A stretch of 64,000 nt of DNA from Roseovarius sp. Pro17 (GTDB lineage: Bacteria; Pseudomonadota; Alphaproteobacteria; Rhodobacterales; Rhodobacteraceae), in NCBI RefSeq assembly GCF_035599575.1, contig NZ_CP141179.1:1674001-1738000 (forward strand), in the 5' to 3' direction. The notes under the pieces were generated by a model. That model ran no database searches, had not been told where the DNA came from, and saw nothing but the letters and a program-made list of their open reading frames with translations. Positions 6,001 to 55,061 of this stretch are shown here, one piece after another. A program made the translations under genes and the position numbers. Numbering within the stretch: position 1 is the stretch's first letter; every line of letters starts with the position of its first letter.

Positions 6001-6063
6001 TCAAAGACCGGGAAAATCCGGCGCGATTGCACGAGCAGACAGAAGCATAGACAGGTAAATCCG

Positions 6064-8292: not shown

Positions 8293-8318
8293 AAGGGCGG
8301 GCCAATCGGTCCGCCCTT
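8293..8318 (+). terminator. Terminator after icd
   Basis: AAGGGCGG (8293-8300) pairs with CCGCCCTT (8311-8318), extended inward by one G-T and two G-C pairs around an AATC loop. It lies 22 bases after the icd stop. The following T run is short (TTTA), and the stem ends in A/T pairs, so it could work on either strand. Confidence 0.75.
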
Positions 8319-8432
8319 TACCGGATCTATCGCACCGCTAGGTTTTCAGGCGTTAGTCTACGAAAAGGCCGATTGGATATGCTCCCAGACAGCTGTCAGA
8401 GTGTCTGCTGTGCAGGACGAAGCGGCCATTAG

Positions 8433-9041: not shown

Positions 9042-9280
9042 GCTCTACAACCTATCTCCGCTGCGCCACCAATACGGGATCACCCAGCCATCTGTTAGAC
9101 CAAAATGCTGTCTACAAACGGCTCAGAGCGGACCCTTGACGATTGATTGCGTCGGGGCGCTCAAGCAAAATCTGCACCGCCTTTAGGAAGTGGTTTGTCC
9201 AAGCGTTCCGCTCAGTATCTGACCACGGAGCATCTTACGACGGAGCGCCGATTTGTCCGGATGAACGGCAAGTGGTCAGC

Positions 9281-11774: not shown

Positions 11775-11781
11775 GGGGCCC

Positions 11782-12015
11782 TCAGACCTTGTCTTTGTGC
11801 TCGGGGGTCACGTCGCGCGTGCCAGCCTCGTGATCGATGTCGCTCTGCGCGTCCGCGTTCTCGATTTCCTTGCTGCCCTCGTCGATGCCCTTCTTGAAGG
11901 ACGTAATGCCTTTGCCGACCTCGCCCATCAGCGACGAAATCTTGCCGCGCCCAAACAGCACGAGCACAACGACGGCGATGAGCAGGAGGCCGGGAAGGCC
12001 GATATTCTGGAACAT
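11782..12015 (-). CDS. tatA: Sec-independent translocase protein TatA
   Basis: The pore-forming small subunit of the Tat system, 77 residues. The membrane helix [20 protein letters not shown] (residues 7-26) is followed by the amphipathic helix [19 protein letters not shown] and an acidic tail. A GGGAG ribosome site precedes the ATG. It heads tatA-tatB-tatC-DUF815. The likely promoter region is 12016-12198, between it and the ABC ATPase that reads in the same direction. Two proteins in this window carry RR-type signals that could use the system (for example 51444). Confidence 0.96.
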
Positions 12016-34075: not shown

Positions 34076-35101
34076 ATGATGCCATTCGCAATCGCAGGTG
34101 TTCAGATGTATGTGAACGCTCTGCAATCCAATGTCGACGGCATGATCCACCGACTGGACCTGCTGATGTCGCGCTTTCCTTGGACGCAGATGGTGCTTTT
34201 CTCGGAGCTGGCCCCGTTCGGGCCGCTGACCAAGTTTTCGCTGCCGCTACGCAATGAAACGGTGGACCGTTTTTGCGAGGCTGCGCGCCGCCATAACATC
34301 TGGCTGATCCCCGGTTCGATGTTCGAGACCGCTGAGGACGGGCGCATCTACAACACCTCGACCGTGATCAACCCGGCGGGCGAAATCGTGTGCAACTACC
34401 GCAAGATATTTCCGTTCCGCCCCTATGAGGGCGGCGTCGAGGCGGGCACCGATTTTTGCGTCTTTGACGTGCCCGATGTGGGCCGGTTCGGCCTGTCGAT
34501 CTGTTATGACATGTGGTTTCCCGAAACGACGCGCCAGATGACGTCTCAGGGCGTCGAGGTGTTGCTGCACCCGGTTCTGACCGGCACGACCGACCGCGAG
34601 GCCGAGCTGTCGATCGCGCGTGCCACGGCGGCGCAGTTCCAGTGCTATGTCATCGACGTCAACGGCCTTGGCGCGGGCGGTGTGGGTAAATCCTGCGTGA
34701 TCGATCCGACCTCGACCGTGCTGCACCAGTCGGCAGGCCAAGAGGATATGTTTCCGATCGAGATCGACCTCAGCCATGTGCGCCGCCAACGCGAGCGCGG
34801 CATGAAGGGGCTGGGCCAGGTCCTCAAGAGTTTTCGCGACCGCGAAGTCGATTTTTCCGTCTATGACCGCACCAGCGGCACCGACGCCTATCTGCACGGG
34901 CTGGGTCCGCTGGTCGTTCCGGGCCAGGACACATCCGGCGCTGCACGCGCCGACCTGGGCCGAGATCTGGGCGCACGTCCGGGCACGCATGACACAGTTG
35001 GCGCCCCGCCCGTTCTAGAGAAAACACAAGAAAGCGCCCAAGCGGCGGTCGGCATGACGCCGGGTACCAACGCCGGAGGCGCGCCGCCGATCACCAATTA
35101 A
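34076..35101 (+). CDS. Carbon-nitrogen hydrolase (nitrilase superfamily)
   Basis: A 341-residue amidase/nitrilase-fold enzyme that hydrolyses or condenses amide C-N bonds. The catalytic triad is complete: Glu44 (FSELAPFGP), Lys110 (YRKIFPF) and Cys143 (SICYDMWFPE). The last 75 residues are a Gly/Ala/Pro-rich tail beyond the fold. ATG 34076 follows AGAGGA; the frame extends 58 residues upstream but with a basic, unconserved sequence. It is first in a four-gene run with a PLP decarboxylase, an ATP-grasp ligase and a C45 hydrolase. N-carbamoylputrescine amidase-like activity is possible but the substrate cannot be read from the sequence. Confidence 0.88.
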   Translation: MMPFAIAGVQMYVNALQSNVDGMIHRLDLLMSRFPWTQMVLFSELAPFGPLTKFSLPLRNETVDRFCEAARRHNIWLIPGSMFETAEDGRIYNTSTVINPAGEIVCNYRKIFPFRPYEGGVEAGTDFCVFDVPDVGRFGLSICYDMWFPETTRQMTSQGVEVLLHPVLTGTTDREAELSIARATAAQFQCYVIDVNGLGAGGVGKSCVIDPTSTVLHQSAGQEDMFPIEIDLSHVRRQRERGMKGLGQVLKSFRDREVDFSVYDRTSGTDAYLHGLGPLVVPGQDTSGAARADLGRDLGARPGTHDTVGAPPVLEKTQESAQAAVGMTPGTNAGGAPPITN

Positions 35102-35113
35102 CACCATAAAAAA

Positions 35114-35164
35114 TGCGGACGATCAGAATCTGCCCGCACTATCTTTGCCTTCATTTTCTGATCG
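35114..35164 (+). promoter_or_regulatory. Alternative stem-loops between nitrilase and decarboxylase genes
   Basis: TGCGG/CCGCA (35114-35118 and 35134-35138) encloses the left arm of a second, perfect 9-bp stem CGATCAGAA/TTCTGATCG (35120-35128 and 35156-35164). The two cannot form together. The arrangement resembles an attenuator or a processing site setting the ratio of the two products. No T tract is present. Confidence 0.35.
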
Positions 35165-35187
35165 CCCGTCAATAGCGGGGAAGTGAT

Positions 35188-37962
35188 ATGCATTCGATGG
35201 CAGACTATTATTCGGCGGTCCAACTCAGGGCCGACCGGTGGAGTTCGCTTCGCGAAGCCACGGCTCAAATGATCCGGGTCGACAGGGGCGGCGCATCGGG
35301 AGGCCGCCCAACGAAAAGCGGGGCGAAACAGATCGAGGAGCTGCTCGATCAACTGGCCCCGATCGAGACGTTCTGGGCCTTTCCCGGCACTGCCGCATTC
35401 GACGTGCTGCGCCGTCACTTTGACGCCGGCCACTACAGCGAGCTGGCCTTTACCGTGCAGCGCATCACCCGCGCACTGACCAGCGGCGCGTATCGGCGCC
35501 GCCAAATCCCGCTGGACCGCGACGGCACCGAGGCCGATGATCACGACGACGAGGCGATGCAATCGCTGGAGGCGCGCGCGCTGAGCAAGCCCTATTTCGA
35601 GGTCATGGTGGTCGATAACCTGAACGAACATCAGGAGCGCTGGCTCAAGAGTAATTTCCAGCGGATGCGCCGCCCCGAAGACCCCTTCCACTACGAGCCG
35701 GTCGTCGTGCCCAGCCTTCAGGACGCGCTGATGGGCGTACTTTTCAATCACAACATTCAGGCCATCGTGGTGCGCCCCGGCCTCACGCTGCACTCAAAAA
35801 TGGTGCTGCCTATACTTGAACGGTATCTCAACCGTGCAGGCGGCATAGCGGCGCTGGAAGAGCTGGACCCCAGCAACTACGGCCCCGAACTGTGCCGCTT
35901 GATCGCCCGCGTGCGCCCCGAGCTGGACGCATACCTGATTACCGACCGCTCGGCCGAGGATATCGCGGGGCTGGATCTGGGGATTTGTCGCCGCGTTTTC
36001 TATAATCAGGAGGATTTCCTCGAACTGCACCTGAACATTATTAGGGGCGTGCAGGCGCGCTATAAAACACCGTTCTTTACCGCGCTGGTCGAGTATTCCA
36101 AGCAGCCAACGGGCGTTTTCCACGCGATGCCGATCAGCCGAGGTAAGTCGATTAACCGCAGTCACTGGATTCAGGACATGGGTGCGTTTTACGGGCCTAA
36201 CATCTTTATGGCCGAAACCTCTGCCACCTCTGGCGGCCTAGACAGCCTGCTAGAGCCGCACGGCCCCATCAAAGAGGCGCAGCGCCTTGCCAGCCGTGCG
36301 TTTGGATCAAAACAGACGTATTTCGCCACCAACGGCACCTCGACCTGCAACAAGATCGTCGTCCAAGCCCTTGTTCGGCCCGGAGATCTCGTTCTGGTCG
36401 ACCGCGATTGCCACAAGTCGCACCATTACGGCATGGTGCTGGCCGGTGCGCAGGTCTGCTACCTCGATAGCTATCCGCTGAACGAATATTCGATGTATGG
36501 CGCGGTCCCTCTCAAGGACATCAAGGCGCAGCTGCTGCAGCTAAAAGCAGCCGGCAAGCTGGACCGCGTGCGCATGCTATTGCTGACCAACTGCACATTC
36601 GACGGTATTGTCTATAACGTCGAGCGGGTCATGCAGGAATGTCTGGCGATCAAGCCGGACCTTGTGTTCCTGTGGGACGAGGCGTGGTTCGCCTTTGCCC
36701 GCTTTGGCCCCACATACCGCCAGCGCACCGCGATGAACGCTGCAAACAACCTGCGCGAACGGTTCCGCAGCGAAGCGCACGCCAAGGCCTACGAGGCCCA
36801 ACAGGAGCTGCTGAAGGATGCCGACGACGAGACGTTGATTAACACGCGTCTGGTGCCTCCGCCCAACTCTCGCGTGCGCGTCTATGCCACGCAATCGACG
36901 CACAAAACGCTGACGTCGCTGCGCCAGGGATCGATGATCCACGTAAACGATCAGGACTTCAAAGGCGAGGTAGAGGCGTCGTTTCACGAGGCCTACATGA
37001 CCCACACGTCGACCTCACCCAACTACCAGATCATCGCATCGCTGGACGTGGGGCGTCGTCAGGTCGAACTGGAAGGGTTTGAGTTCGTGCAGCGGCAGGT
37101 CGAGGCGGCCATGTCGATGCGCCGCGCGATATCGACCCATCCGCTCTTGCAGAAATATTTCAAGGTTCTGACCGCAGGCGACATGATCCCCGAAGAACAC
37201 CGCGAAAGCGGCGTCAGCAGCTACTACGATTCCGATCAGGGCTGGACCGATATGTGGGAGTGTTGGGAAAACGACGAATTCGTGCTGGACGCAACGCGCG
37301 TGACCCTTTCGGTCGGCGGAACCGGCTGGGACGGCGACACGTTCAAGACCGAAATCCTGATGGATAAATACGGCATCCAGATCAACAAAACGTCGCGCAA
37401 TACGGTCCTGTTCATGACCAATATCGGCACGACGCGATCCTCGGTCGCCTACCTCATCGAAGTGCTGGTCGAAATCGCGCGCGAACTGGACGAATTGCAG
37501 GACGACGCCTCGATGATGGAGCGGCGCGGGTTTCAAAAGCGTGTGTCGAACCTGATGGACGACCTGCCCCCCCTGCCCGATTTCTCGCGTTTCCATGATG
37601 CGTTCCGCTCGGGCAGCGAGACGCCAGAGGGCGACATCCGCTCGGCCTTTTTCCTCAGCTACGACGAAAAGAACTGCGACTACCTCGAACTTGACGGCTC
37701 GATCCACGACGCGATGAAGAGCGGCGAGGATATCGTATCGTCGCAATTCATCATCCCCTACCCGCCCGGCTTTCCCATTCTGGTGCCGGGACAGGTGGTC
37801 AGCGACGAGATCCTGTCATTCATGCGCGCGCTGGATGTGAGCGAAATCCACGGCTATCGCGGCGATCTGGGCCTACGCGTGTTCACGCAAGACGCGCTGA
37901 AACGCGCAGGCAAGGCCAACACAGCGCGCTTGAAACTGAACGACGCGCGCGCAAAGCTCTAG
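35188..37962 (+). CDS. Large Orn/Lys/Arg decarboxylase family protein
   Basis: A 924-residue fold-type I PLP enzyme of the inducible ornithine/lysine/arginine decarboxylase class. Those usually have about 710-755 residues, so this one has an N-terminal part of about 330 residues, longer than the normal wing domain. The cofactor region starts near TSATSGGLDSLL; CHKSHHYGMVLAG (408-420) stacks on PLP, WDEAW (496-500, Asp497) binds the ring nitrogen, and STHKTLTSLRQGS carries Lys573 as the Schiff-base lysine. The C-terminal domain is present. A GGGGAAG ribosome site precedes the ATG. The product amine would be substrate for the next genes; which amino acid is used is unknown. Confidence 0.9.
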   Translation: MHSMADYYSAVQLRADRWSSLREATAQMIRVDRGGASGGRPTKSGAKQIEELLDQLAPIETFWAFPGTAAFDVLRRHFDAGHYSELAFTVQRITRALTSGAYRRRQIPLDRDGTEADDHDDEAMQSLEARALSKPYFEVMVVDNLNEHQERWLKSNFQRMRRPEDPFHYEPVVVPSLQDALMGVLFNHNIQAIVVRPGLTLHSKMVLPILERYLNRAGGIAALEELDPSNYGPELCRLIARVRPELDAYLITDRSAEDIAGLDLGICRRVFYNQEDFLELHLNIIRGVQARYKTPFFTALVEYSKQPTGVFHAMPISRGKSINRSHWIQDMGAFYGPNIFMAETSATSGGLDSLLEPHGPIKEAQRLASRAFGSKQTYFATNGTSTCNKIVVQALVRPGDLVLVDRDCHKSHHYGMVLAGAQVCYLDSYPLNEYSMYGAVPLKDIKAQLLQLKAAGKLDRVRMLLLTNCTFDGIVYNVERVMQECLAIKPDLVFLWDEAWFAFARFGPTYRQRTAMNAANNLRERFRSEAHAKAYEAQQELLKDADDETLINTRLVPPPNSRVRVYATQSTHKTLTSLRQGSMIHVNDQDFKGEVEASFHEAYMTHTSTSPNYQIIASLDVGRRQVELEGFEFVQRQVEAAMSMRRAISTHPLLQKYFKVLTAGDMIPEEHRESGVSSYYDSDQGWTDMWECWENDEFVLDATRVTLSVGGTGWDGDTFKTEILMDKYGIQINKTSRNTVLFMTNIGTTRSSVAYLIEVLVEIARELDELQDDASMMERRGFQKRVSNLMDDLPPLPDFSRFHDAFRSGSETPEGDIRSAFFLSYDEKNCDYLELDGSIHDAMKSGEDIVSSQFIIPYPPGFPILVPGQVVSDEILSFMRALDVSEIHGYRGDLGLRVFTQDALKRAGKANTARLKLNDARAKL

Positions 37963-38012
37963 ACGACAAGAGCAAAATAAAAAACGACCCTACCAACAGG
38001 AGGACCACAACC

Positions 38013-39470
38013 ATGTCCGCAGAGCTCAAGAATATCTCGGAAATCCGTCGCCACTTTCACCGCAACGAGGATCCGATCTATTTCATATCGGCCACCAATT
38101 TCAACCTGCTGGGCCTTGATGAATGGTGCAAGAATTTCAAGTTTATCAGCTATATAGACTGCTATGGCGGCAAGCATCCGAACACGTTTGTCCCGTCCGA
38201 GCAGCCTCATGCCGAATTCCAGTCGATTGAGGACATCAACAACTATCTGCTGCAGCACAAGGAGGTCATCGACCTCATCAAACGGCGTGGCGGCAAGCCG
38301 AAATTCGTGTTCCTGATGTTTGACGCCGAAACTGAGCGGCTGAGCAAGGAACTGGGCGCCGACGTCTGGTTCCCCAAAGCCAAGCTGCGCCAAAAGATGG
38401 ACAATAAGATCGAGACGGTCCGCATCGGCAACAAGGCGGGTGTGCCGTCTGTGCCCAACACGCTGAGCGTCGTCGAGAACTACGAGCATCTGAAAGAGAT
38501 TTGCGACAAAGCCGGCCTCGGCCACGATCTGGTGCTGCAATCGGCCTATGGCGATAGTGGCCACACCACGTTTTTCATCAAGTCCGAGGCCGATTTCCGC
38601 CGCCACGAGCACGAGATCGTCGGCGAGGGCGAGATCAAGATCATGAAGCGGATCGATTGCCGCGGTTCCGCAATTGAGGCCTGCGCCACCAAGGAGGGCA
38701 CCATCGTCGGCCCGCTGATGACCGAGCTTGTTGGCTTCAAAGAACTAACCCCCTATCGCGGCGGCTGGTGCGGGAACGAGATCTTTGCGACAGCCTTCCC
38801 ACCCAAAGTGCGCCAGAAGGCCCGTGAACTGACCTTCAAATTCGGCGAGCAACTGCGCAAGGAGGGATATCGCGGCTATTTTGAGCTGGATTTCCTGATT
38901 GACAAGAAAACCGGTGATATCTGGCTGGGCGAACTGAACCCGCGCATCACCGGCTGTTCGTCGATGACGAATCACGCGGCATTCGCCCATGCCGACGCGC
39001 CATTGTTCCTCTTCCACCTGCTGGAATTCTCGAAAAAGAAATTCAAGCTGGACGTGGACGAACTGAACAGCCGTTGGGCCGATCCCAAGATGATCGACTC
39101 GTGGTCGCAGATGGTCATCAAACATACCGAAGATACCGTCGACATCGCGACCGCAGTGCCCGAAACTGGCATCTACCGGATGCGCGACGATGGCAGCATC
39201 GACTTTAACCGGTTTGATTATCACCGCCGCGCGGTTGGGTCCGAGAATGAGGCATTCTTTCTGCGCATTCTGCAACCCGGCGATTATCGCTATGAGGGGG
39301 CCGATATTGGCATTCTGGTGACGCGCGGACGCTCGATGACCAACGGATTCAAGCTGAACGAGCGTGGCAAGCGCTGGATTCATGGCATCAAAAAGGGCGT
39401 TCACGGGCGTCCCATGCCCACAGCCGAGGCAGGACCGGCCCTTGCCGATCCGGCCTTCAAGATCATGTAG
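38013..39470 (+). CDS. ATP-grasp ligase, biotin-carboxylase-like
   Basis: A 485-residue ATP-grasp enzyme. Such enzymes join a carboxylate to an amine, thiol or bicarbonate through an acyl phosphate. The ATP-binding part runs from about 120 to 330 with VLQSAYGDSGHTTFF (174-188), metal ligands in FELDF (290-294) and ELNPR (307-311). There are no biotin carrier or carboxyltransferase genes nearby, so a peptide or amide ligase is likelier than a carboxylase. AGGAGG precedes the ATG. It sits 50 bases after the decarboxylase, so it probably ligates that amine, directly or after modification. Confidence 0.85.
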   Translation: MSAELKNISEIRRHFHRNEDPIYFISATNFNLLGLDEWCKNFKFISYIDCYGGKHPNTFVPSEQPHAEFQSIEDINNYLLQHKEVIDLIKRRGGKPKFVFLMFDAETERLSKELGADVWFPKAKLRQKMDNKIETVRIGNKAGVPSVPNTLSVVENYEHLKEICDKAGLGHDLVLQSAYGDSGHTTFFIKSEADFRRHEHEIVGEGEIKIMKRIDCRGSAIEACATKEGTIVGPLMTELVGFKELTPYRGGWCGNEIFATAFPPKVRQKARELTFKFGEQLRKEGYRGYFELDFLIDKKTGDIWLGELNPRITGCSSMTNHAAFAHADAPLFLFHLLEFSKKKFKLDVDELNSRWADPKMIDSWSQMVIKHTEDTVDIATAVPETGIYRMRDDGSIDFNRFDYHRRAVGSENEAFFLRILQPGDYRYEGADIGILVTRGRSMTNGFKLNERGKRWIHGIKKGVHGRPMPTAEAGPALADPAFKIM

Positions 39471-39478
39471 ATGGCTTG

Positions 39479-40471
39479 ATGGAACTGAATTGGCGCGCAA
39501 TCTCCGAGGATGAACCCGGCCCGAAATGGGCCGGGCTTTTCCATGAATACTGGCCCGACTACCATCGCTGGTGGGCGCGCGAGGGGCCCGAGGCGCGGCC
39601 CGGCTTTCTGGACAGTCACAAGGCGCTGCGCGCGCATATGCCGGAATTACTGCCGCTCTACGATCAGCTCTGCGAACTGGCGGGCGGCACGGACCACGCT
39701 GCGCGCTTTCTCAGCTTTTATTGCCCGCCCCCCTACCTATCGTCATGTTCACAGGCGATCTGGCCGGGGGCCGAGCCTGTTCTGGTGCGCAATTACGACT
39801 ACTCGCCCAAGGCGTTCGACAGCCTGACCCTGCGCACCAATTGGCAGGGCCGCGCCGTCATGGGCACGTCCGACGGGCTCTGGGGGCTGGTCGACGGGAT
39901 CAATGATGCGGGCCTCGCCGTCTCCCTGACATTCGGCGGCCGGCGGGTGGTTGGCGACGGCTTCGGCGTGCCGCTGATCCTGCGCTACGTACTGCAAACA
40001 TGTGAGACGGCCGCCGAGGCGGGCCGCGTTCTGGCCCGCGTGCCGACCCATATGAGTTACAACGTCACCGTGGTCGATGCTCAGCGCAAATTCCTGACCG
40101 CGCTAATGGCCCCCGACCGCAAGACCACCATCACCCATCAGGCGGTCGCCACCAACCATCAGGAGCGGGTCGAGTGGGCCAGCCACGCGCGGTTCACAGC
40201 GACGGTCGAGCGCGAGCGCTATCTGCTGCAACGTCTGACCCTGCATGTCGATCCCGAAGAGAAATTCATCAACGCCTTCCTGCGCCCACCGCTTTATTCA
40301 TCGCGCTTCGACGAGGGGTTCGGCACGCTCTATACGGCGGTCTATCGCCCGCAGAGGCTACAGATGGAGATGTGCTGGCCCCGCGCCCGCTGGCCGCTGA
40401 ACCTGCATGATTTTCACGAGGACACGCGCGTGATTTATACGCCCGAGGGATCGCCTTCGGCAGCGGAATAG
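39479..40471 (+). CDS. C45-family autoproteolytic acyltransferase/hydrolase
   Basis: A 330-residue Ntn-hydrolase of peptidase family C45, the family of fungal acyl-CoA:6-aminopenicillanate acyltransferase. Cleavage exposes an N-terminal Cys nucleophile; here Cys90 in PYLSSCSQAIW is followed by PVLVRNYDYS, the family's usual continuation. It may transfer or remove an acyl group on the product of the preceding genes. TTG at 39476 and ATG at 39479 are both possible; I use the ATG. It starts 8 bases after the ATP-grasp stop. Confidence 0.85.
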   Translation: MELNWRAISEDEPGPKWAGLFHEYWPDYHRWWAREGPEARPGFLDSHKALRAHMPELLPLYDQLCELAGGTDHAARFLSFYCPPPYLSSCSQAIWPGAEPVLVRNYDYSPKAFDSLTLRTNWQGRAVMGTSDGLWGLVDGINDAGLAVSLTFGGRRVVGDGFGVPLILRYVLQTCETAAEAGRVLARVPTHMSYNVTVVDAQRKFLTALMAPDRKTTITHQAVATNHQERVEWASHARFTATVERERYLLQRLTLHVDPEEKFINAFLRPPLYSSRFDEGFGTLYTAVYRPQRLQMEMCWPRARWPLNLHDFHEDTRVIYTPEGSPSAAE

Positions 40472-40502: not shown

Positions 40503-41504
40503 TCACCACCTCTTGCGAAACTTCCCTGGCGCCACGTCAAACTTGGCGCGGAACGCCCGCGCAAAGGCCGATGTTCCGCCAAAGCCGGTCGCGGCAGAGA
40601 TCTCGGCAATGGGCAGATCCGTCTCGCTCAGCAGCGAATAGGCCCGCGCGAGGCGCATGTCGGTATAATAGCGCCGCGGGCTGAGGCCGGTATGCTGGGA
40701 AAAGCTGCGCTCAAGCTGGCGTTTCGAGATGCCGGTCTGTTGCGCGATCTCTTCGACTCTCAGCGGTTCTTCGAGGTGCAAGTGCATCAGGCGCATCGCG
40801 GCGATCAGGTGCCGATTGCGGCTGCCGATAACCGCCGAGCGGGCGGTTTTCTGGGGCGCATGGTCCGAATGACTGCGCCCGTGCAGGCACATATCCGACA
40901 CGACCAGCGCGAAATCGTGGCCGAAATCAGCCTCGATCACGCTCAGCATCAGGTCGGTCGACGCGGATCCGCCCGCCGCCGTCATCAGGTCGCGGTCCAC
41001 CTCATATAGGTTCGGCGTCGGCACAAGGTCGGGATAAGCCTCGACAAAAGAGGGCTGGTTTTCCCAGTGCAGCGTAAAAGTCCGCCCCCCCAGCAGACCG
41101 GCCTTGGCCAGCGTGAACGCCCCGGTGCAGATCGCGCCCACCGGCACGCCATGCGCTGCCTGCCGCGCGGCCCAATGCGTGACGCCGGTGTCCAGCGTCT
41201 CGGCAGGTTCGACGCCCGAGCAGACGAACACGCGCGCCCCCCGCTCAGGCGGCCCCAGCGGCGCATCAGCCACGATGGAAATGTTGTTCGAACAGCGCAC
41301 GGGCGCGCCAGCCGGCGTCATCGTGCGCCAACGATACAGCTCCTGCTGCGAGATCTGATTGGCCACGCGCAAAGGCTCGATCGCCGCCGACAACGCCAGC
41401 ATCGTCAGCTTGGGCAGCAGCACGAAATCAAACATCCGCGGCGCTTCGACGCGCGCGATGCGAAAACTGGCCGCGCCCTTGGGGATGTAGTCGGAATACG
41501 TCAT
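40503..41504 (-). CDS. GlxA-type AraC family transcriptional regulator
   Basis: A 333-residue regulator with an N-terminal DJ-1/PfpI (GATase-like) domain (about 20-190, with VGAICTGAFTLAKAGLL) and a C-terminal AraC double helix-turn-helix (RVEEIAQQTGISKRQLERSFSQHTGLSPRRYY). Regulators of this type include GbdR and ArgR of Pseudomonas, which control betaine and arginine catabolism. It is convergent with the C45 gene, so it may regulate the nitrilase-decarboxylase-ligase cluster or the betaine-type genes to its right; the sequence does not decide. ATG 41504 is preferred to 41555, which gives a 17-residue extension of no known pattern. Confidence 0.9.
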   Translation of the reverse strand: MTYSDYIPKGAASFRIARVEAPRMFDFVLLPKLTMLALSAAIEPLRVANQISQQELYRWRTMTPAGAPVRCSNNISIVADAPLGPPERGARVFVCSGVEPAETLDTGVTHWAARQAAHGVPVGAICTGAFTLAKAGLLGGRTFTLHWENQPSFVEAYPDLVPTPNLYEVDRDLMTAAGGSASTDLMLSVIEADFGHDFALVVSDMCLHGRSHSDHAPQKTARSAVIGSRNRHLIAAMRLMHLHLEEPLRVEEIAQQTGISKRQLERSFSQHTGLSPRRYYTDMRLARAYSLLSETDLPIAEISAATGFGGTSAFARAFRAKFDVAPGKFRKRW

Positions 41505-41579
41505 GTTGGTTTTTTGCCGGTAATCTACAGCAACCTTAACATGCTCCCACGCCAAGGCCCAGCAGTAGCGAGCCCGATC

Positions 41580-43334: not shown

Positions 43335-44270
43335 ATGAAACGCATCGCCATTTCCGCCGCCGCGCTGGCCACGCTCGCGGCGCCCGTCCTTGCCGAGGTC
43401 GAAAGTCAGGATCCGATCCGCCTGACAACGCATGACTGGACCGGCCAGATCGTCAACGCCACGATCCTCAAGGACGTGCTGGAGCAGGCAGGCTACAATA
43501 TCGAACTGGTTCAAGCCGACTACATCGCCCAATTTGCGGGCCTCAAGACCGGCGATCTGCACGTCGCCGTCGAGATGTGGGAGACGACAGGCCGCGAGGC
43601 AATGGATGAGGCCATCGGCACTGGCAACGTCGTCAACATGGGCGAAGGCGGCATGATAGCCATCGAGGAATGGTGGTATCCCAGCTATATGGAGGCACGC
43701 TGCCCCGGCCTGCCAAACTGGGAGGCACTGAACGATTGCGCGCAGGAATTCGCCACGTCCGAGACGGCCCCGCTGGGTCGATACCTCGGCGGGCCGGTCA
43801 CATGGGGCGGCTTTGACGAAGAACGCGTCGAGGCATTGGGCCTGGATTTCGAAGTGGTCCATGCTGGCACAGACGCCGCGCTATTCGCCGAACTTGAATC
43901 GGCCTACCAGCGCGAGGCGCCCATCGTCCTGTGGATCTATTCGCCGCACTGGTCGACCACCAAATACGACGGTAAATTCGTGGAATTCCCCGAATACTCC
44001 AAGGCTTGCTACGAGGATCCGAGCGTCGGCATAAACCCCGACGCCGCCTATGATTGCGGCAAGCCGACAGGACCGATCTGGAAGGTCGCTTGGGCGGGCG
44101 TCGAGGACAAGTGGCCCGGCGCGGCCGAGATCATCCGCAACTACACGCTGACCAATGACGAAATGGGCGCGATGGTTACCGCCATCGATCTGGACGGGCA
44201 GTCCATCGAGGCGGTCGCTGACCAATGGATGACCGACAACGCCGACAAGGTAGACGGCTGGATCAACTGA
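43335..44270 (+). CDS. ABC transporter substrate-binding protein, glycine betaine/proline type
   Basis: A 311-residue periplasmic OpuAC/ProX-type protein. Residues 1-20 are a signal peptide (cleavage after VLA). The mature protein has DWTGQIVNATILKDVLEQAGY, and Trp residues in VEMWETTG, EEWWYPSY and YSPHW that could form an aromatic cage for a quaternary ammonium group. Cysteines in ARCPG, DCAQ, KACYED and DCGK may form disulfides. It starts the importer operon, with a stem-loop (44289-44309) after its stop that may favour its higher expression. Confidence 0.93.
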   Translation: MKRIAISAAALATLAAPVLAEVESQDPIRLTTHDWTGQIVNATILKDVLEQAGYNIELVQADYIAQFAGLKTGDLHVAVEMWETTGREAMDEAIGTGNVVNMGEGGMIAIEEWWYPSYMEARCPGLPNWEALNDCAQEFATSETAPLGRYLGGPVTWGGFDEERVEALGLDFEVVHAGTDAALFAELESAYQREAPIVLWIYSPHWSTTKYDGKFVEFPEYSKACYEDPSVGINPDAAYDCGKPTGPIWKVAWAGVEDKWPGAAEIIRNYTLTNDEMGAMVTAIDLDGQSIEAVADQWMTDNADKVDGWIN

Positions 44271-44288
44271 TTTTTTGCTGAGCCTGAG

Positions 44289-44315
44289 CGGGGGGCGCTT
44301 TGCCCCTCGTTTATT
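44289..44315 (+). terminator. Attenuator-like hairpin after the binding-protein gene
   Basis: CGGGGGGC (44289-44296), GCTTT loop, GCCCCTCG (44302-44309) forms an 8-bp stem with one G-T pair, followed by TTTATT. Such hairpins after binding-protein genes often let only part of transcription continue or protect the upstream mRNA. Confidence 0.6.
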
Positions 44316-44362
44316 CCACGGTATTTCCTTTATGCCCGCCTCCGGGCCATTTTGAGGTGCAG

Positions 44363-45382
44363 ATGCCCCGCGCGCGTAAACTGCTCTGCCGCAATGTCTG
44401 GAAGCTATACGGCCCGGATGCTGGCAACTTCCTGAACAAGCACCCTGATCCTGATGACGCCACTCTGCGCGATGCGGCCATGATTGGCGCCGTGCGCGCC
44501 GCCGATGTCGAAATCTGCGAGGGCGAGATTTTTGTCATCATGGGTTTGTCGGGGTCCGGTAAGTCCACGCTGGTGCGGTGTCTGTCGCGCCTCGTCGAGC
44601 CGACGGGTGGCGAGATTGAATTTGACGGCGAGGATTTGCTGGCGATGAGCAGCGCACAGCTAACGCAATTGAGGCGGCGCAAGATCGGGATGGTGTTCCA
44701 GAACTTTGCCCTGCTGCCGCATCTGAGCGTTCTGCAGAACGTCGCCTTTCCGCTGGATGTGCAGGGTGTTGACCGCCGCACCCGCGAGGCGCGCGCGAAT
44801 GAGATGATCGAGACGGTCGGCCTGAAAGGGCGCGAGGACTATTTTCCCCGCCAATTGTCGGGCGGTCAGCAGCAACGCGTCGGCATCGCTCGCAGCCTCG
44901 TGGGCGAGCCTGAAATCTGGTTTCTCGACGAGCCTTTCAGCGCGCTCGACCCGCTTATACGGCGCGAGATGCAGGACGAATTCATGCGCCTTCAGGGGCT
45001 GCTCAAGAAAACGATTGTCTTTATCACGCACGATTTCGATGAGGCGATCCGCCTTGCTGACCGGATTGCGGTGATGAAAGATGGGCACATCGTGCAGACC
45101 GCCACGCCCGAGGAATTGGTGTTGAACCCCGCCACAGACTACGTCGCGGAATTCACCAAGCACATCCCGCGCGGCAAGGTGCTAAGCGTGGGCGCGATCA
45201 TGGCGCGCCTCACGAACGGCACCTATGCCGGCGATCTGGAGGCATCCCAAAGGGTCGCGGATGTCGCAGATCAGGTCGAGGCGGCCCAGCGCCCCTTTCG
45301 CGTGATGAGGGATGGCGAGGCTGTCGGCAGCGTTGATGCCGCCGCCGTCATCGACGTTCTGATTGGTCGGGCCCGCGCATGA
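44363..45382 (+). CDS. ABC transporter ATP-binding protein, glycine betaine/proline type
   Basis: A 339-residue OpuAA/ProV-type ATPase. Walker [10 protein letters not shown] is at 61-69, LSGGQQQRV is the signature, [11 protein letters not shown] is Walker B and [14 protein letters not shown] the switch. The C-terminal part, where ProV has paired CBS domains, is short (about 70 residues), so osmotic sensing of the usual kind is doubtful. ATG 44363 follows GAGG; the longer frame from 44300 would run through the hairpin. Its stop overlaps the permease start (ATGA). Confidence 0.93.
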
Positions 45383-47376
45383 GTTGGCGACGCCTGATCG
45401 CGCCCAGCGCGCTGTTCTGGTGGGCGCTGCTGGCGGTGACATGGGCGCTCTCCAGTTATTCCTTTCAGCTTTACAAGGCGCTGGATGCGCGCTGGATCAT
45501 CCGCTTTCCCAAGGGGTGGCAGCTGAACATCGAAGGCTGGATTTCCACCGCGATGAAATGGCTGCTGGAGGACGCGACATTCGGTCTGTTCACCTTTCAG
45601 GAGCTGACTCGCTTTATCTCGGCCCTGATCGAGGTGCCGTATGACGCCGCGCGTGCCCTGTTGGCGGACGGGTTTATCCACGGCCTTGGCAGCAACGCTG
45701 TTCAGATCGCGCCGCCGCTCAGCTGGATCGCGGTCACCGCGCTGATGGTGTTGCTGGCGCGCTATGCCAAGGGCTGGGGGCTGGCCGCGCTGGTTGGCGC
45801 ATGTTTTATCTATCTGGCGGTGTTTGGCCAGTGGGACAGCGCGATGGTCACGCTTGCCTCGGTGGTGATCGCAGTGCCTATCGGCGTGCTGGGGGGCCTC
45901 GCCCTTGGGATTGCGTGCTACCGCGCGGCGTGGGTCGAGCGGGCGATGCGCCCGGTGCTGGACCTAATGCAGACGGTGCCGATATTCGCCTATCTCGTGC
46001 CGATCCTGTTCCTGTTTGGCTTCGGCCCCGTCTCTGCGTTGGTTGCAACAGTCATCTATGCGATGCCGCCGATGGTGCGGGTCGCTACGGTCGCCTTGCA
46101 GAGCGTGCCGCCCGAAGTGGTCGAGGCAGGGCATATGGCCGGCTGCACCAAGCGTCAGATGATGTGGAAGGTTCTGGTGCCCTCCGCCGCGCCGACGCTG
46201 ATGGTGGGTGTCAATCAGGTGATCATGTTGTCGCTGAACATGGTCATCATTGCGTCGATGATCGGCGCCGGTGGCCTTGGGTTCGACGTCCTCAGCGCGC
46301 TGCGCCGTCTCGATATAGGCGGCGGGATCGAGGCTGGTCTGGCTATCGTGGTCATCGCCATCGCGCTGGATCGCGTCAGTCAGGCCTTCTCAAAACGCTT
46401 GCCCGCTGCCGCGCCCAAGCGGGGTGCAAACCTCGCCCAACGCCATCCTTACCTCGTGGCGGCGACGCTGATCGTCGGCGGCACGTATCTGGTCAGCCTC
46501 GCCCTGCCCTTTGTGCAGGACTACCCCGAGCGGTTCACCCTGACGACCAGCGCATTCTGGGAGGATGCGATGCGGTGGATCAACATCACGTTCTTTGACA
46601 TTCTGGACACGATCAAGTCGTTCTTTCTCACGTGGCTCCTGCTGCCGGTGAAACGCTTTTTCACCGGTATCCCATGGGCATGGGGCATCATCGCCACCGG
46701 TTTGGCCGCTGCGCGTGTCGGTGGATGGCGACTGGGCCTGATGTCGGCGGCCATGGCCACGCTGATCGCTGCCGTGGGCCTCTGGGACAAGGCAATGACG
46801 ACCGTCTACCTTTGCGGTGTATCGGTTCTGATCGCCTACGCCATTGGCGTCCCCCTTGGCATCTGGGCCGGGCAGCGGGCGCGCGCCCACGCGTGGGTCG
46901 GCGCGTTCATCGACACGCTGCAAACCCTGCCCAGCTTTGTTTATCTGATCCCGGTGGTGATGCTGTTCCGCGTCGGCGACTTTTCGGCGATGATCGCGGT
47001 TGTTCTCTACGCGCTGGCCCCTGCCGTGCGCTATGCGGCGCATGGCGTGCGCTCGGTCGATCCGCAGATGATCGAAGCCGGGCTGGTCGCGGGCTGCACA
47101 CCCCGCCAGCTACTCTGGCGGATCAAGCTGCCGCTGGCCGCGCCCTCACTACTGCTGGGCCTGAACCAAACGATCATGTTGGCGCTGTCGATGCTGGTCA
47201 TCACAGCCCTCGTCGGCACCCGCGATCTGGGTCAGGAGGTCTATATCGCGCTGACCAAGGCGAACACCGGCCAAGGTATCGTCGCCGGCCTTGCGGTCGC
47301 GTTTATCGCGATCATCGCGGATCGCATCATCTCGGCCATGGCGCGCCGATCACGGGAAAGGCTGGGCCTGTCATGA
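45379..47376 (+). CDS. Tandem ABC permease, glycine betaine/proline type
   Basis: A 665-residue membrane protein made of two ProW-like permease units in one chain. The first carries the EAA loop VEAGHMAGCTKRQMMWKVLVPSAAP (first half); the second has IEAGLVAGCTPRQLLWRIKLPLAAP, so both halves keep the ATPase-contact motif. Each ends with a GxxQxIMLxLxM segment. A pseudodimer in one polypeptide would replace the usual homodimer. It overlaps the upstream ATPase and downstream kinase genes by four bases each. Confidence 0.92.
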   Translation: MSWRRLIAPSALFWWALLAVTWALSSYSFQLYKALDARWIIRFPKGWQLNIEGWISTAMKWLLEDATFGLFTFQELTRFISALIEVPYDAARALLADGFIHGLGSNAVQIAPPLSWIAVTALMVLLARYAKGWGLAALVGACFIYLAVFGQWDSAMVTLASVVIAVPIGVLGGLALGIACYRAAWVERAMRPVLDLMQTVPIFAYLVPILFLFGFGPVSALVATVIYAMPPMVRVATVALQSVPPEVVEAGHMAGCTKRQMMWKVLVPSAAPTLMVGVNQVIMLSLNMVIIASMIGAGGLGFDVLSALRRLDIGGGIEAGLAIVVIAIALDRVSQAFSKRLPAAAPKRGANLAQRHPYLVAATLIVGGTYLVSLALPFVQDYPERFTLTTSAFWEDAMRWINITFFDILDTIKSFFLTWLLLPVKRFFTGIPWAWGIIATGLAAARVGGWRLGLMSAAMATLIAAVGLWDKAMTTVYLCGVSVLIAYAIGVPLGIWAGQRARAHAWVGAFIDTLQTLPSFVYLIPVVMLFRVGDFSAMIAVVLYALAPAVRYAAHGVRSVDPQMIEAGLVAGCTPRQLLWRIKLPLAAPSLLLGLNQTIMLALSMLVITALVGTRDLGQEVYIALTKANTGQGIVAGLAVAFIAIIADRIISAMARRSRERLGLS

Positions 47377-48260
47377 CTCCTGATGAGGCGATCAAGACCG
47401 CGCGCGCCCTGCCCTGCTGGACAGCTGTGAGTGCCGCCGTGCCGTTGGATGGCGGCATCACCAACCACAACATCCGCGTGACGGATAAGGGACGCGACTA
47501 TGTGGTGCGGCTGGGGCAGGACATCCCCGAGCACGGCATCCTGCGCTGGCACGAGTTGTCGCTCAGCCGTGCGGCTGCCGAGGCAGGGCTATCACCGCAA
47601 GTGCATCACGTCGAGCCGGGCGCGCTGGTCATCGACTTTATTGACAGCGTCGCACTGACCGAAAACGATCTGCATGACGAGGCCACGCTGATGCAGGCGA
47701 CCGACCTCATCGCGCGGGTCCATCGCGACATGCCGCGCTATGCACATGGCCCGATCCTCGCCTTCTGGGTGTTTCATATTCTGCGCAGCTACGCCCATGA
47801 CCTTCGGGAACGGGGCTCGCGCCATACCCCGCAACTGAGCGGCCTGCTGGACGAGGCGGACATGCTGGAACGCGCCGTCGGCCCCGTTGATCTGGTTCTG
47901 GGGCATAACGATCTGTTGCCTGCCAACATCCTGCGGGCCGAGGATCGCCTCTGGGTCATCGACTGGGAATACGGCGGGTTCAACTCGCCGCTTTTCGATC
48001 TGGGTGGCATCGCCTCGAACTGCGATCTGCCGCGCGCCGCCGAAGAGGCGATGCTGACCCGCTACTATGGCCATCCGCCGGATACCGCCCTCTGGCGCAG
48101 TTATTCGGCCATGAAATGCGCGTCGCTCCTGCGCGAAACGATGTGGTCGATGGTCAGCGAGCAGACCTCGACCCTCGAATTCGACTACGCCGACTACACC
48201 GACAAGAACCTCAACCGCTACCGCGCTGCGCTGGCCGCCTTCACAGACAAGGACACCTGA
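47373..48260 (+). CDS. Choline-kinase-like phosphotransferase
   Basis: A 295-residue protein of the aminoglycoside phosphotransferase/choline kinase family. GGITNHNIRV is the nucleotide loop, GHNDLLPANIL the Brenner catalytic motif (HxDxxxxN, His replaced in part as HND), and VIDWEYGGFNSPLFDLG the Mg-binding segment. Choline and ethanolamine kinases have this same order. ATG 47373 overlaps the permease stop (ATGA); the long frame from 46632 is out of frame with the permease and not real. It probably phosphorylates the imported compound or a product of it. Confidence 0.9.
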   Translation: MTPDEAIKTARALPCWTAVSAAVPLDGGITNHNIRVTDKGRDYVVRLGQDIPEHGILRWHELSLSRAAAEAGLSPQVHHVEPGALVIDFIDSVALTENDLHDEATLMQATDLIARVHRDMPRYAHGPILAFWVFHILRSYAHDLRERGSRHTPQLSGLLDEADMLERAVGPVDLVLGHNDLLPANILRAEDRLWVIDWEYGGFNSPLFDLGGIASNCDLPRAAEEAMLTRYYGHPPDTALWRSYSAMKCASLLRETMWSMVSEQTSTLEFDYADYTDKNLNRYRAALAAFTDKDT

Positions 48261-48261
48261 C

Positions 48262-50700
48262 ATGAGCGATTTCCCCAATCAGGCCCGTGCGGTCATCGTC
48301 GGCGGCGGCATCGTCGGATGCTCGACCGCCTATCACCTTGCCGATCTGGGTTGGGACGTGGTGCTGCTCGAGCGGAAGAAGCTGACCTCCGGCACCACGT
48401 TTCACGCCGCCGGCCTCGTCGGGCAGCTACGCTCGAACGCCAATATCACGCAGCTGCTGGGTTATTCCGTCGATCTCTACAAACGGCTCGAGGCCGAGAC
48501 GGGTCAGGCAACCGGGTGGAAGATGAACGGCGGGCTGCGCCTTGCCTGCAACGCCGAACGCTGGACCGAGGTAAAGCGACAAGCGACGACTGCGCATTCC
48601 TTTGGCCTGGAAATGGAGCTGCTGACGCCATCGGAGGCACAGGAATTATGGCCGCTGATGCAGGTCGACGACGTCGTCGGCGCGGCCTTCATGCCGACCG
48701 ACGGACAGGCGAACCCCTCGGACATCACCCTGTCACTGGCCAAGGGTGCGCGGCAGAAGGGCACCCGGATTTTCGAGGATACCAAGGTCACAGAGGTCAT
48801 CGTCGAAAACGGCATCATCAAAGGCGTCGAGACGGAAAAAGGCCGCATCGACACGCCCATCGTAATCGCCTGCTGTGGCCAGTGGACGCGCCAATTTGCC
48901 AAACAGGTCGGCGTCAACGTCCCCCTCGTCCCGATCGAACATCAATATATGGTCACGGACCAGATAGACGGCGTAACCCCCGATTTGCCGACCCTGCGCG
49001 ATCCTGACCGCCTGACCTACTACAAGGAGGAGGTCGGCGGCCTAGTCATGGGGGGCTATGAGGCCAATCCGATCCTCTGGGCCAAAAACGGCATCCCCAA
49101 GGATTTTCACTACACCCTGCTCGACAGTAACTTCGACCATTTCGAGCAGTTGATGGAGCTGTCCTTGGGCCGTGTTCCCGCGCTGGAAACCGCTGGTATC
49201 AAGACACTGACCAATGGCCCAGAAAGCTTTACCCCCGATGGCAATTTCATCCTCGGTGAAGCGCCAGAATTGCGCAATTTTTTTGTCGGAGCGGGCTTTA
49301 ACGCCTATGGCATCGCGGCGGGGGGCGGCGCGGGCATGGCGCTGGCCGAATGGGTGGCCAAGGGCGCGCCGCCCTATGACCTCTGGGCCGTCGATATCCG
49401 CCGTTTTGGTCGCCCGCATTTCGACGACGACTGGATCCGCGCTCGTACTTACGAGGCCTATGGCAAGCACTACACGATGGCATGGCCGCATGAGGAACAC
49501 TCATCAGCGCGCCCCTGCCGCAAATCACCACTCTATGACGCGCTGAAAACCCAAGGCGCGGTCTTCGGCGAGAAACTGGGATGGGAACGGCCCAACTGGT
49601 TCGCAGAACCCGGCGAAGAGGCGCGCGATATCTATACGTATCAAACGCCCAATTGGCACGACGCGGTCGCGCGCGAACACAAAGCGGCACGCGAAGCGGC
49701 TGTCCTCTTTGATCAGACGTCCTTTGCCAAGTTTGTGCTAAAGGGCCCGGAAGCCGAGGCAGCGCTGGGATGGATCGCGGCGAACGACGTGCGCGGCCCG
49801 GTCGGCACGCTGACCTACACCCAGATGCTCAACGATCATGGCGGGATCGAATGCGATTTGACTTGCGCACGCACAGCGCCTGATGAGTTCTACATCGTCA
49901 CCGGCACGGGCTATGCAACGCATGATTTCGACCATATCGCGCGCAACATTCCTCAGGGTATGGACGCGCAACTCGTTGATGTGACGTCGGCCTATGCGGT
50001 TCTGTCAATCATGGGGCCAAGGGCGCGCGATATCGTTCAGGCCTTGACCCATGCGGACATGGGCAACGACGCTTTCCCCTTTGGCACGTGCCAGATGATC
50101 GCGATCGCGGGCGCGCCCGTGCGCGCATTGCGTGTCACATATGTGGGCGAATTGGGGTGGGAATTGCACGTGCCCACCGAGTACGCCACCGCCGTTCACG
50201 GCGCACTGATGCAGGCAGGTGAGCCGCACGGCCTATGCAACGCGGGCTACCGCGCGATTGAGACGCTGCGGTTGGAAAAAGGCTATCGCGCTTGGGCGTC
50301 CGATATCGGGCCGGACCACACGCCGCTGGAGGCGGGCCTCGGCTGGGCGGTCAAGCTAAAGACGAATATCGACTTCCGCGGTCGTTCTGCCTGCGCCGCG
50401 CAAACCGAGAATGGCGTCAAAAAGATCATGGCGACCTTCACCACTGCGCCGGGCGTGATCCTCTCGGGGCGCGAGACAATCTATCGGGATGGAGCGCGGT
50501 GCGGTTGGCTTAGCTCCGCTGGCTTTGGCCATACGGTGCAAAAATCAATCGGCATGGGCTATGTGCGCGACGCTAGCGGCATCACGCGCGCGGACGTGCT
50601 GAATGGCCAGTATGAACTGGAGGTCGCGGGCGAGCGCGTGCCCGCCGAGGCCTGCCTGAGCGCGCTCTACGATCCCAAAATTGAGAAGGTGAAGGCCTGA
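48262..50700 (+). CDS. FAD-dependent oxidoreductase, dimethylglycine/sarcosine dehydrogenase type
   Basis: An 812-residue flavoprotein. It has an N-terminal DAO domain with VGGGIVG (13-19) and TTFHAAG (45-51, His48 at the covalent-FAD position of dimethylglycine dehydrogenase), then a central oxidoreductase linker, and C-terminal GcvT/aminomethyltransferase-type domains from about 430 (with LGWELHVPTEYA and GYRAIETLRLEKGY) that pass the methyl carbon to tetrahydrofolate. It should oxidise an N-methyl amine. It directly follows the kinase gene and is the last gene of the importer operon, ending at a strong hairpin. Confidence 0.93.
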   Translation: MSDFPNQARAVIVGGGIVGCSTAYHLADLGWDVVLLERKKLTSGTTFHAAGLVGQLRSNANITQLLGYSVDLYKRLEAETGQATGWKMNGGLRLACNAERWTEVKRQATTAHSFGLEMELLTPSEAQELWPLMQVDDVVGAAFMPTDGQANPSDITLSLAKGARQKGTRIFEDTKVTEVIVENGIIKGVETEKGRIDTPIVIACCGQWTRQFAKQVGVNVPLVPIEHQYMVTDQIDGVTPDLPTLRDPDRLTYYKEEVGGLVMGGYEANPILWAKNGIPKDFHYTLLDSNFDHFEQLMELSLGRVPALETAGIKTLTNGPESFTPDGNFILGEAPELRNFFVGAGFNAYGIAAGGGAGMALAEWVAKGAPPYDLWAVDIRRFGRPHFDDDWIRARTYEAYGKHYTMAWPHEEHSSARPCRKSPLYDALKTQGAVFGEKLGWERPNWFAEPGEEARDIYTYQTPNWHDAVAREHKAAREAAVLFDQTSFAKFVLKGPEAEAALGWIAANDVRGPVGTLTYTQMLNDHGGIECDLTCARTAPDEFYIVTGTGYATHDFDHIARNIPQGMDAQLVDVTSAYAVLSIMGPRARDIVQALTHADMGNDAFPFGTCQMIAIAGAPVRALRVTYVGELGWELHVPTEYATAVHGALMQAGEPHGLCNAGYRAIETLRLEKGYRAWASDIGPDHTPLEAGLGWAVKLKTNIDFRGRSACAAQTENGVKKIMATFTTAPGVILSGRETIYRDGARCGWLSSAGFGHTVQKSIGMGYVRDASGITRADVLNGQYELEVAGERVPAEACLSALYDPKIEKVKA

Positions 50701-50720
50701 GGCATCCCAATCGTACCGTG

Positions 50721-50746
50721 AAAGGCAGGCCACTTGGCCTGCCTTT
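50721..50746. terminator. Bidirectional terminator
   Basis: AAAGGCAGGCC (50721-50731), ACTT, GGCCTGCCTTT (50736-50746) is a perfect 11-bp stem between the convergent flavoprotein and cytochrome genes. It ends in A/T pairs on both sides, so it can serve both transcripts. Confidence 0.88.
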
Positions 50747-50766
50747 GGGCAGATCGGTCAGCTTCT

Positions 50767-51243
50767 CTACTCGGCCTTGGCCGGGGCGATCGAATGGAGA
50801 AAAGCGTAAATATCCGCTGCTTCCTGTGGGTCACGCACCCTCCAGCTCATCTTGCTGCGGGCTTTCTTGTCGTCCAGCTTTTCGCGCAGCCAGTCCGTTG
50901 GATTTTGAACGTAGGTCACAAAGTTTTCTTCGGTCCACACAATGTCCGTATCGGCCATCTCGGCCATCGACTTGCTGAATTTGAACCCTTCGACCGTCCC
51001 GACGGTCCCGCCCATGACGCCATAAAGGTTCGGGCCGGTGCGACCGCGCTTGCCTGCCAGCACTTCGCCGTCGTCGGATTTCACCACATGGCACGCCGTG
51101 CATTGCTTGGCGAACGCTTCCTCGCCGGCTGCGACGTCGCCGGTGGGGGCGGCAGTCGCGGTTTCGGGATTATCGCTTGCGGCAAGGGCTGGCGCGCTTA
51201 GCAGCAGCACGGCGGCGGTGGCTGTTGCAACAATGGGTTTCAT
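50767..51243 (-). CDS. Cytochrome c, c2/c550 type
   Basis: A 158-residue periplasmic class I cytochrome c. Signal peptide 1-21 (APALA), heme motif CTACH at 48-52, and the axial Met in KKARSKMSWRV. The PNLYGVMGGTVGTVEGFKFSKSM block is typical of the c2/c550 group, which carries electrons to oxidases, reaction centres or dehydrogenases. It is alone on its strand, convergent with the DMGDH-like gene, and could accept electrons indirectly, but no link is shown by the sequence. Confidence 0.92.
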   Translation of the reverse strand: MKPIVATATAAVLLLSAPALAASDNPETATAAPTGDVAAGEEAFAKQCTACHVVKSDDGEVLAGKRGRTGPNLYGVMGGTVGTVEGFKFSKSMAEMADTDIVWTEENFVTYVQNPTDWLREKLDDKKARSKMSWRVRDPQEAADIYAFLHSIAPAKAE

Positions 51244-51443
51244 TGGTCCTCCTTGGCCCTCAGCGGGCCTCTGTTCGGTTCAGTGGCACAACAAATATTA
51301 CGCTGCGTCAGTTCCACTTTCACCCTGCCATTGCCTGAACGCACATGCCAACGCGCAGGGGGCGCAAATCGCTGGCATTTGGCGGCGTCTGATTTTATGC
51401 TCCGGCGCAAGCCTGCTAGAAACTTCGGGGGGATCCAGGACCA

Positions 51444-55059: not shown

Positions 55060-55061
55060 TC

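Follow-up and report, generated by a model that had tools for sequence, protein, structure and literature searches.

The 64,000-nucleotide stretch of the Roseovarius sp. Pro17 genome analysed here (contig NZ_CP141179.1, positions 1,674,001 to 1,738,000; hereafter the window) carries a block of four genes on the plus strand. They encode NIT, a carbon–nitrogen hydrolase and amidase of the nitrilase superfamily (34076..35101, 341 residues; PF00795); DEC, an Orn/Lys/Arg-type pyridoxal phosphate (PLP) decarboxylase related to Rv2531c of Mycobacterium tuberculosis (35188..37962, 924 residues; PF01276); LIG, an ATP-grasp ligase that is called “biotin carboxylase” in annotation elsewhere (38013..39470, 485 residues; NF005096); and C45, an N-terminal nucleophile (Ntn) hydrolase of the isopenicillin-N acyltransferase family (39479..40471, 330 residues, or 331 from an in-frame TTG at 39476; PF03417). 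All four open reading frames, checked in the window, are intact and head to tail, without internal stops, and their coordinates bear out the gaps given in the original prediction: 86 bases between NIT and DEC, 50 between DEC and LIG, and 8 between LIG and C45. The catalytic residues it listed are likewise all present, namely Glu44, Lys110 and Cys143 of NIT, Lys573 of DEC, the ELNPR motif of LIG and Cys90 of C45. Its description of the decarboxylase as “giant” holds as a relative term only; Rv2531c has 947 residues.

In a scan of named genomes, LIG had 423 relatives. The best 80 loci, from Rhodobacteraceae, were retained, and in 71 of them the upstream DNA extends for 3.5 kb or more. The four genes are found together in 74 of the 80, which supports the view that they form one functional unit, a co-inherited cassette. 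Scattered relatives, named beforehand as the outcome that would speak against such a unit, did not occur. Among the six incomplete loci, L013 is full length and lacks NIT only, and the other five (L025, L038, L054, L056 and L064) are short or lie at a contig end. In wider samples, with the Roseovarius genome itself counted, LIG is present in 27 of 121 genomes of the order, in 5 of 142 and 11 of 385 genomes of the class (two overlapping draws) and in 11 of 398 genomes of the phylum; in the class of genome G202 it occurs in 8 of 274. The four-gene set is thus patchy in its distribution, and it is portable. Each part belongs to a known family, and text searches of open-licence full texts found no published description of the set, its portability or the DEC specificity proposed below; the statement that no named pathway is known to use this set agrees with the same literature searches, which returned no published pathway for them.

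DEC is a member of the PF01276 family (256 bits; cut-off 27), and its PLP-binding Lys573 is kept in all 96 rows of a DEC alignment that was not dereplicated and was made before most of the halomonad-like loci described below joined the sample. Its closest structural relative, aligned over residues 12–913, is Rv2531c (9n0n and 9n0o; E 4e-251), a probable amino acid decarboxylase also represented by 9n0p, which shares the length class, the PLP core and the N-terminal extension of DEC; entry 9n0o is assigned to Rv2531c in PMC12910592. LdcI-type Lys/Arg/Orn decarboxylases have the PF01276 fold and the catalytic lysine in common with DEC. Unlike them, DEC has about 230–330 residues ahead of the aligning region, and it carries Asn733 in place of LdcI Glu526, with the preceding loop seven residues shorter. 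Glu526 was postulated to bind substrate in a docking study of LdcI (PMC5607190). With numbering counted back along the alignment line, it corresponds to Asn733, and LdcI Pro530 to Arg737. Position 733 is Asn in 94 of the 96 rows (one Glu, one gap), and Arg737 is Arg in 93.

By model score and by the Glu526 position, DEC thus appears to lie outside the known Lys/Arg/Orn decarboxylase subfamilies: the best curated model gave 212 bits against a cut-off of 968, and the other five listed were missed as widely. This bears on the alternative that takes DEC for a normal decarboxylase of arginine, lysine or ornithine and has agmatine, or an amine like it, broken down by the cluster through an acylated intermediate. 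The Pfam and NCBIfam relatives of DEC are indeed arginine, lysine and ornithine enzymes, but its scores far below the cut-off of each such model and the replacement of Glu526 by Asn make this reading very improbable. The seven families listed for DEC at E ≤ 0.001 do not include canonical glutamate decarboxylase (TIGR01788) either; within the order, 2 of 121 genomes have a match to that family over its cut-off, and the Roseovarius genome has no match to it.

The remaining three genes would supply amide chemistry. LIG had no Pfam match at E ≤ 0.001, and it scored 749.8 bits against the NCBIfam model NF005096, “biotin carboxylase” (cut-off 684); in its family, 6889 proteins matched among 7999 scored. 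The predicted LIG model (pLDDT, the predicted local distance difference test, 90.6) has an ATP-grasp fold that is nearest to biotin carboxylase and PurK and is PylC-like, and the ELNPR motif begins at residue 307. In biotin carboxylase, the Glu of the RIQVEH motif is the bicarbonate base. Against this background of ATP-grasp enzymes (biotin carboxylase, PurK, PylC and carbamoyl-phosphate synthetase), a profile alignment sets PRISGASP of the LIG family against PRIQVEHT of pyruvate carboxylase (PRISGAS in LIG for PRIQVEH). Although LIG passes NF005096, its identification as a biotin carboxylase therefore looks wrong, as the RIQVEH residues, with the base Glu, are missing. Several public records of LIG relatives carry this label.

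C45 belongs to its family by PF03417 (113.6 bits) and by NF040521 (173 bits; cut-off 85), and its nucleophile Cys90, counted from the start at 39479, is invariant in 32 alignment rows. The fold nearest to the predicted model (pLDDT 73.5) is that of isopenicillin N acyltransferase (2x1c), likewise a C45/AAT Ntn-hydrolase, with identity to the solved acyltransferase chains of only 11–13%. NIT falls within the nitrilase superfamily (PF00795, 113 bits; cut-off 23.2), has the Glu–Lys–Cys triad and reaches the cut-off of none of the 10 NCBIfam models listed for it. We treat LIG as a putative carboxylate–amine ligase, and C45 and NIT, by family, as probable amide hydrolases or transferases; these amide steps rest on family chemistry. 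With a ligase and two hydrolases in one operon, conjugation followed by release would make sense. The predicted combination of a decarboxylase with amide-bond chemistry is supported.

Neighbouring genes suggest what the cassette may act on. Among the 80 Rhodobacteraceae loci, whose neighbour counts are non-independent, 38 have a fused TRAP permease gene upstream, on the same strand and no more than 1.5 kb away, and 37 have a gene for a TAXI binding protein. The one TAXI protein tested, from L035, has 8s4j and 9ibo as its best solved matches (E 3e-120). We take these entries to be the glutamate receptor VcGluP of Vibrio cholerae because their chain residues fit the numbering in PMC11574862. Hand-counted on the alignment, the L035 protein keeps the VcGluP pocket residues V44, Y45, S75, Q93, H123, E125, G156, Y200 and G203 and differs at S40, Y46, D157 and M201; at the last of these it has Thr, as does the Thermus thermophilus protein (PMC11574862). 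A TAXI-TRAP system of Cereibacter sphaeroides, alike by type alone, is needed for sodium-dependent growth on glutamate (PMC12632250). Furthermore, 24 of the 80 loci have a gabT-like gene nearby (at least 50% identity to the probe from L087, which itself scores 546 bits; curated cut-off 507), 16 have a gene for an XRE-cupin-type regulator, and in 26 a class III aminotransferase gene of the L029 type follows C45 after 18–178 bases, measured between aligned ends. The L029 enzyme, the one scanned, is PRK07483 (765.7 bits; cut-off 485).

The Roseovarius genome holds these partners apart from the block. On contig C1, at about 381.7–387.4 kb, a TAXI gene (80% identity to L035), a TRAP permease gene and an L029-type aminotransferase gene (71%) are adjacent, with no NIT-DEC-LIG-C45 between the permease and the aminotransferase, where relatives carry them; a gabT over its cut-off, with a divergent XRE-cupin-like gene, lies at about 2279.6 kb, unlinked to the block. 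In the LIG tree, the window groups with L010, L012 and L014 (support 100/98), none of which has a TAXI or TRAP probe match. Since the earlier branches L144, L145 and L093 are of the TAXI-linked form, it is simpler to suppose that the window's clade has lost this link.

A second LIG-C45 pair of the same genome (45% and 44% identity) lies in L090 (C1:2203000-2222000) at 8318–11831, that is C1:2211.5–2214.3 kb, near genes for a DctP-type binding protein and an amino-acid permease; no DEC or NIT was recognised there, and the pair is a paralogous system. A third C45 paralogue is encoded in L091 (9467–10753, minus strand), with genes resembling those of a class III aminotransferase, an XRE-cupin regulator and an acetylpolyamine amidohydrolase, identified by eye, within about 6 kb.

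A different setting was found in the family of genome G508, provisionally labelled halomonad-like here for its ectoine-degradation (doe) genes. LIG is present in 22 of its 81 genomes, and in 21 of these 22 (L137, L139 and L173–L191) the block is inserted between doeX and doeC, in the order doeA-doeB-doeX-NIT-LIG-C45-DEC-doeC-doeD on one strand; the remaining genome has LIG-C45 only (L192, 46% identity). In L137, DoeA reached 670 bits (cut-off 613) and DoeB 492 (cut-off 403), and the other doe genes were identified by similarity to this locus. In the doe operon of Halomonas elongata, by contrast, doeX is followed by doeC without an insert (PMC3187862), and that of H. hydrothermalis Y2 has one extra open reading frame, encoding a GGDEF protein, ahead of doeX (PMC6815383). 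The doe locus looks insertion-prone, having received the four genes in 21 genomes and the GGDEF gene in strain Y2.

The doe operon makes diaminobutyrate and aspartate, the latter as its end product (PMC3187862, PMC5320631), and two alternatives draw on this. In the first, DEC would be an aspartate alpha-decarboxylase converting L-aspartate to beta-alanine, and LIG and C45 would make and cleave carnosine-like beta-alanyl amides, or the system would supply beta-alanine without PanD, which many alphaproteobacteria lack (PMC10228743). The block's place in the operon of 21 halomonad-like genomes fits this proposal, which is nevertheless unlikely overall; in Rhodobacteraceae the block is accompanied by a glutamate-type importer of the TAXI class and by a gabT-like gene. 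In the second, which we consider somewhat less likely still, DEC would convert L-2,4-diaminobutyrate to 1,3-diaminopropane; LIG would cap one amine, a class III aminotransferase and an aldehyde dehydrogenase would oxidise the other end, and C45 would uncap the product to give beta-alanine, as in the Puu route. The doe operon, with its class III aminotransferase and dehydrogenase, would suit such a scheme, as would the class III aminotransferase that follows C45 in Rhodobacteraceae. However, the acidic residue postulated for substrate binding in lysine decarboxylase is Asn in DEC, with an Arg four residues on, and the glutamate importer, as well as the AspT neighbours described next, would be left unexplained.

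Plasmid regions in which DEC occurs without LIG nearby add to both sides. Seven annotated regions of this kind were opened (L100, L148–L151, L225 and L226), and aspT adjoins DEC in five of them, from Ensifer (two), Rhizobium, Rhodobacter and Phyllobacterium (L148, L149, L150, L225 and L226); among these five, aspD is present in two, ectoine genes in one and an HdeA gene (PF06411) near one. This company is in line with an acidic amino acid as the substrate of DEC and speaks for the aspartate proposal. The other two, L100 (Roseateles) and L151 (Sinorhizobium meliloti), list no aspT, which speaks against the aspartate proposal and against our own alike. In L151, the DNA upstream of DEC includes, at a distance of about 2.7 kb, an ectB gene (646.5 bits; cut-off 552), as the diaminobutyrate proposal would have it, but a transposase gene stands between the two. 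The five DEC-aspT regions are also, in their own right, a candidate acid-stress module.

Plasmids of Shinella, Roseateles XES5 and Sinorhizobium RAC02 instead carry LIG-C45, with NIT about 7–8 kb away, in an arginine operon, annotated in two of the three with agmatinase, 5-guanidino-2-oxopentanoate decarboxylase, aldehyde dehydrogenase, D-amino acid dehydrogenase and racemase. As read from this annotation, the operon is an arginine-to-gamma-aminobutyrate (GABA) route, an outcome in keeping with GABA as the product and at odds with aspartate as the substrate. The link of LIG-C45 to arginine might seem to favour a basic substrate for DEC, yet these operons carry no DEC in the stretch examined.

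Several other lineages connect the cassette to glutamate and GABA. A gabT over the curated cut-off was found in G735 (570 bits) and G1056 (562 bits), at loci L205 and L210, and succinate-semialdehyde dehydrogenase (SSADH) in G1162 at L213 (715 bits; cut-off 646), so that, by curated cut-offs, a GABA shunt gene is linked to relatives of the block in L087, L205 and L210 (gabT) and in L213 (SSADH). In G735 an XRE-cupin-type gene accompanies gabT, and in G1056 there is a PutA gene (1652 bits; cut-off 747); PutA, which lies beside L210, yields glutamate, again in disagreement with an aspartate substrate. G1055 has a partial TRAP_fused permease at a contig end (178 bits, below the cut-off of 321), and a Cupriavidus locus has genes for an SDF symporter and a MocR-type regulator. 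In L096 and in S. meliloti L101, a glutamate dehydrogenase-family gene (PF00208) lies within about 6 kb of DEC. On plasmid unnamed3 of Rhizobium leguminosarum Vaf10 (L097, 1143–14471), DEC-LIG-C45, followed by a peptide-type ATP-binding cassette (ABC) transporter, lies about 1 kb from nifH and divergent from nifHDKEN, a placement that suggests expression in nodules. In L096 (R. beringeri pRlX1, 3142–6969), annotated radical S-adenosylmethionine genes for a ribosomally synthesized and post-translationally modified peptide, with a Nif11-like precursor, lie about 2 kb from DEC.

The order of the steps could also be reversed. In the butirosin pathway, BtrJ, BtrK and BtrG provide a model in which ligation comes first. 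By analogy with a free-standing version of this logic, LIG would first couple glutamate, through its gamma-carboxyl, to an amine or a carrier; DEC would then decarboxylate the gamma-glutamyl amide, and C45 and NIT would release GABA. The glutamate-type importer and gabT that flank the set in many loci, the presence of DEC together with LIG in 77 of the 80 named loci, and an Asn at the Glu526 position, which would suit an amide, are compatible with this order. We regard it as quite improbable, given the seven DEC loci without LIG nearby and the four loci with LIG and C45 but no DEC nearby (L090, L143, L192 and L098); moreover, BtrK belongs to another, alanine-racemase fold group (PMC8503589).

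Our preferred, still tentative, reading is that the block is a cassette of acidic amino-acid catabolism, in which DEC would convert glutamate to GABA and LIG, C45 and NIT would make and cleave an amide. The specificity of DEC would have shifted, within the Orn/Lys/Arg fold family, from basic to acidic amino acids, with L-glutamate to GABA as the most likely reaction and L-aspartate to beta-alanine as a near rival. LIG would then form an ATP-driven amide between a carboxylate and an amine, one of them being the omega-amino acid, and C45 (and NIT) would later hydrolyse or transfer the amide, freeing the omega-amino acid for a transaminase. The decarboxylase step has moderate support: from the pocket and the neighbours, DEC is probably an acidic amino-acid decarboxylase, and glutamate is a possible but less secure choice of substrate, because the doe operon and the company of aspT fit aspartate or diaminobutyrate. 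The amine expected from decarboxylation need not be of the polyamine type: the pocket and several of the neighbours suggest that DEC takes an acidic amino acid and yields an omega-amino acid. Whether the cluster serves synthesis or breakdown had been left open, and the neighbours (a glutamate-type importer, GABA transaminase, the doe operon, the arginine operon and PutA) lean towards catabolism.

Several observations weigh against this reading, beginning with the non-independence of the neighbour counts. The position in the ectoine operon and the aspT neighbours are no less compatible with aspartate or diaminobutyrate than with glutamate. Rv2531c, whose activity is called unclarified in PMC12910592, keeps the Asn at the position of Asn733 and has Ile at that of Arg737, where the S. 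meliloti L101 DEC has Pro. NIT is missing beside the rhizobial DEC-LIG-C45 (L096, L097 and L101) and in L141 and L142. Probes for genes other than the four, including the doe probes, had no match in the 64-kb window at E ≤ 1e-15, and no glutamate gene lies beside the block; similarly, no informative neighbours were recognised in L095, L136, L141, L142, L206, L211 and L214. Finally, L094 has an agmatinase-family gene upstream (186 bits; cut-off 174), and in L138 a gene at 4373–5452, about 3 kb ahead of NIT-LIG-C45-DEC, resembles by eye that of an acetylpolyamine amidohydrolase; both would suit an amine pathway and count in favour of a normal arginine, lysine or ornithine decarboxylase.

Around the block in the window, the convergent regulator gene of the original prediction is present at its end, encoding a DJ-1/AraC-type protein (40503..41555, minus strand; PF12833/PF01965) that scores 279.7 bits against the GbdR model (cut-off 480). 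It adjoins the block in just 6 of the 80 loci; rather than belonging to the conserved set, it is a local trait shared by close relatives of the window. Further downstream, positions 43335–56006 include a gene for an OpuAC binding protein (by Pfam) and, by eye, ProV/ProW-like, choline-kinase-like, dimethylglycine-dehydrogenase-like and BMP/nucleoside-type ABC genes.

The proposed function gives a testable assignment for a structurally solved type of decarboxylase (Rv2531c) and for a large ligase family. Marine roseobacters and halomonad-like bacteria would have a further route for nitrogen from glutamate, ectoine and arginine, and there would be a candidate reason for the presence of the same genes beside nifHDKEN on a rhizobial plasmid. 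If DEC takes glutamate, it would also make up for canonical glutamate decarboxylase being nearly absent from the order.

Among known systems, the logic of the cassette would match either the Puu pathway or the insect black-ebony-tan system. The Puu (gamma-glutamyl-putrescine) pathway follows a protect-and-release logic with a glutamine-synthetase-like ligase, PuuA, and a class I amidotransferase-like hydrolase, PuuD. The ligase and hydrolase here are of the ATP-grasp and C45 types instead, so that the logic may be alike while the enzymes differ. In insects, black, ebony and tan are a decarboxylase, an amide synthase and a C45 hydrolase. It is conceivable, though on balance doubtful, that the cassette is a bacterial counterpart of this system, in which a glutamate (or aspartate) decarboxylase derived from the basic family supplies an amide cycle run by ATP-grasp and Ntn-hydrolase enzymes. 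A partner molecule would take up the omega-amino acid and give it back, and the whole would have spread as a cassette that plugs into loci for the uptake of glutamate, the breakdown of ectoine or arginine, and rhizobial symbiosis. The insect system resembles the cassette in having the same three roles and, in Tan, a true C45 enzyme for release.

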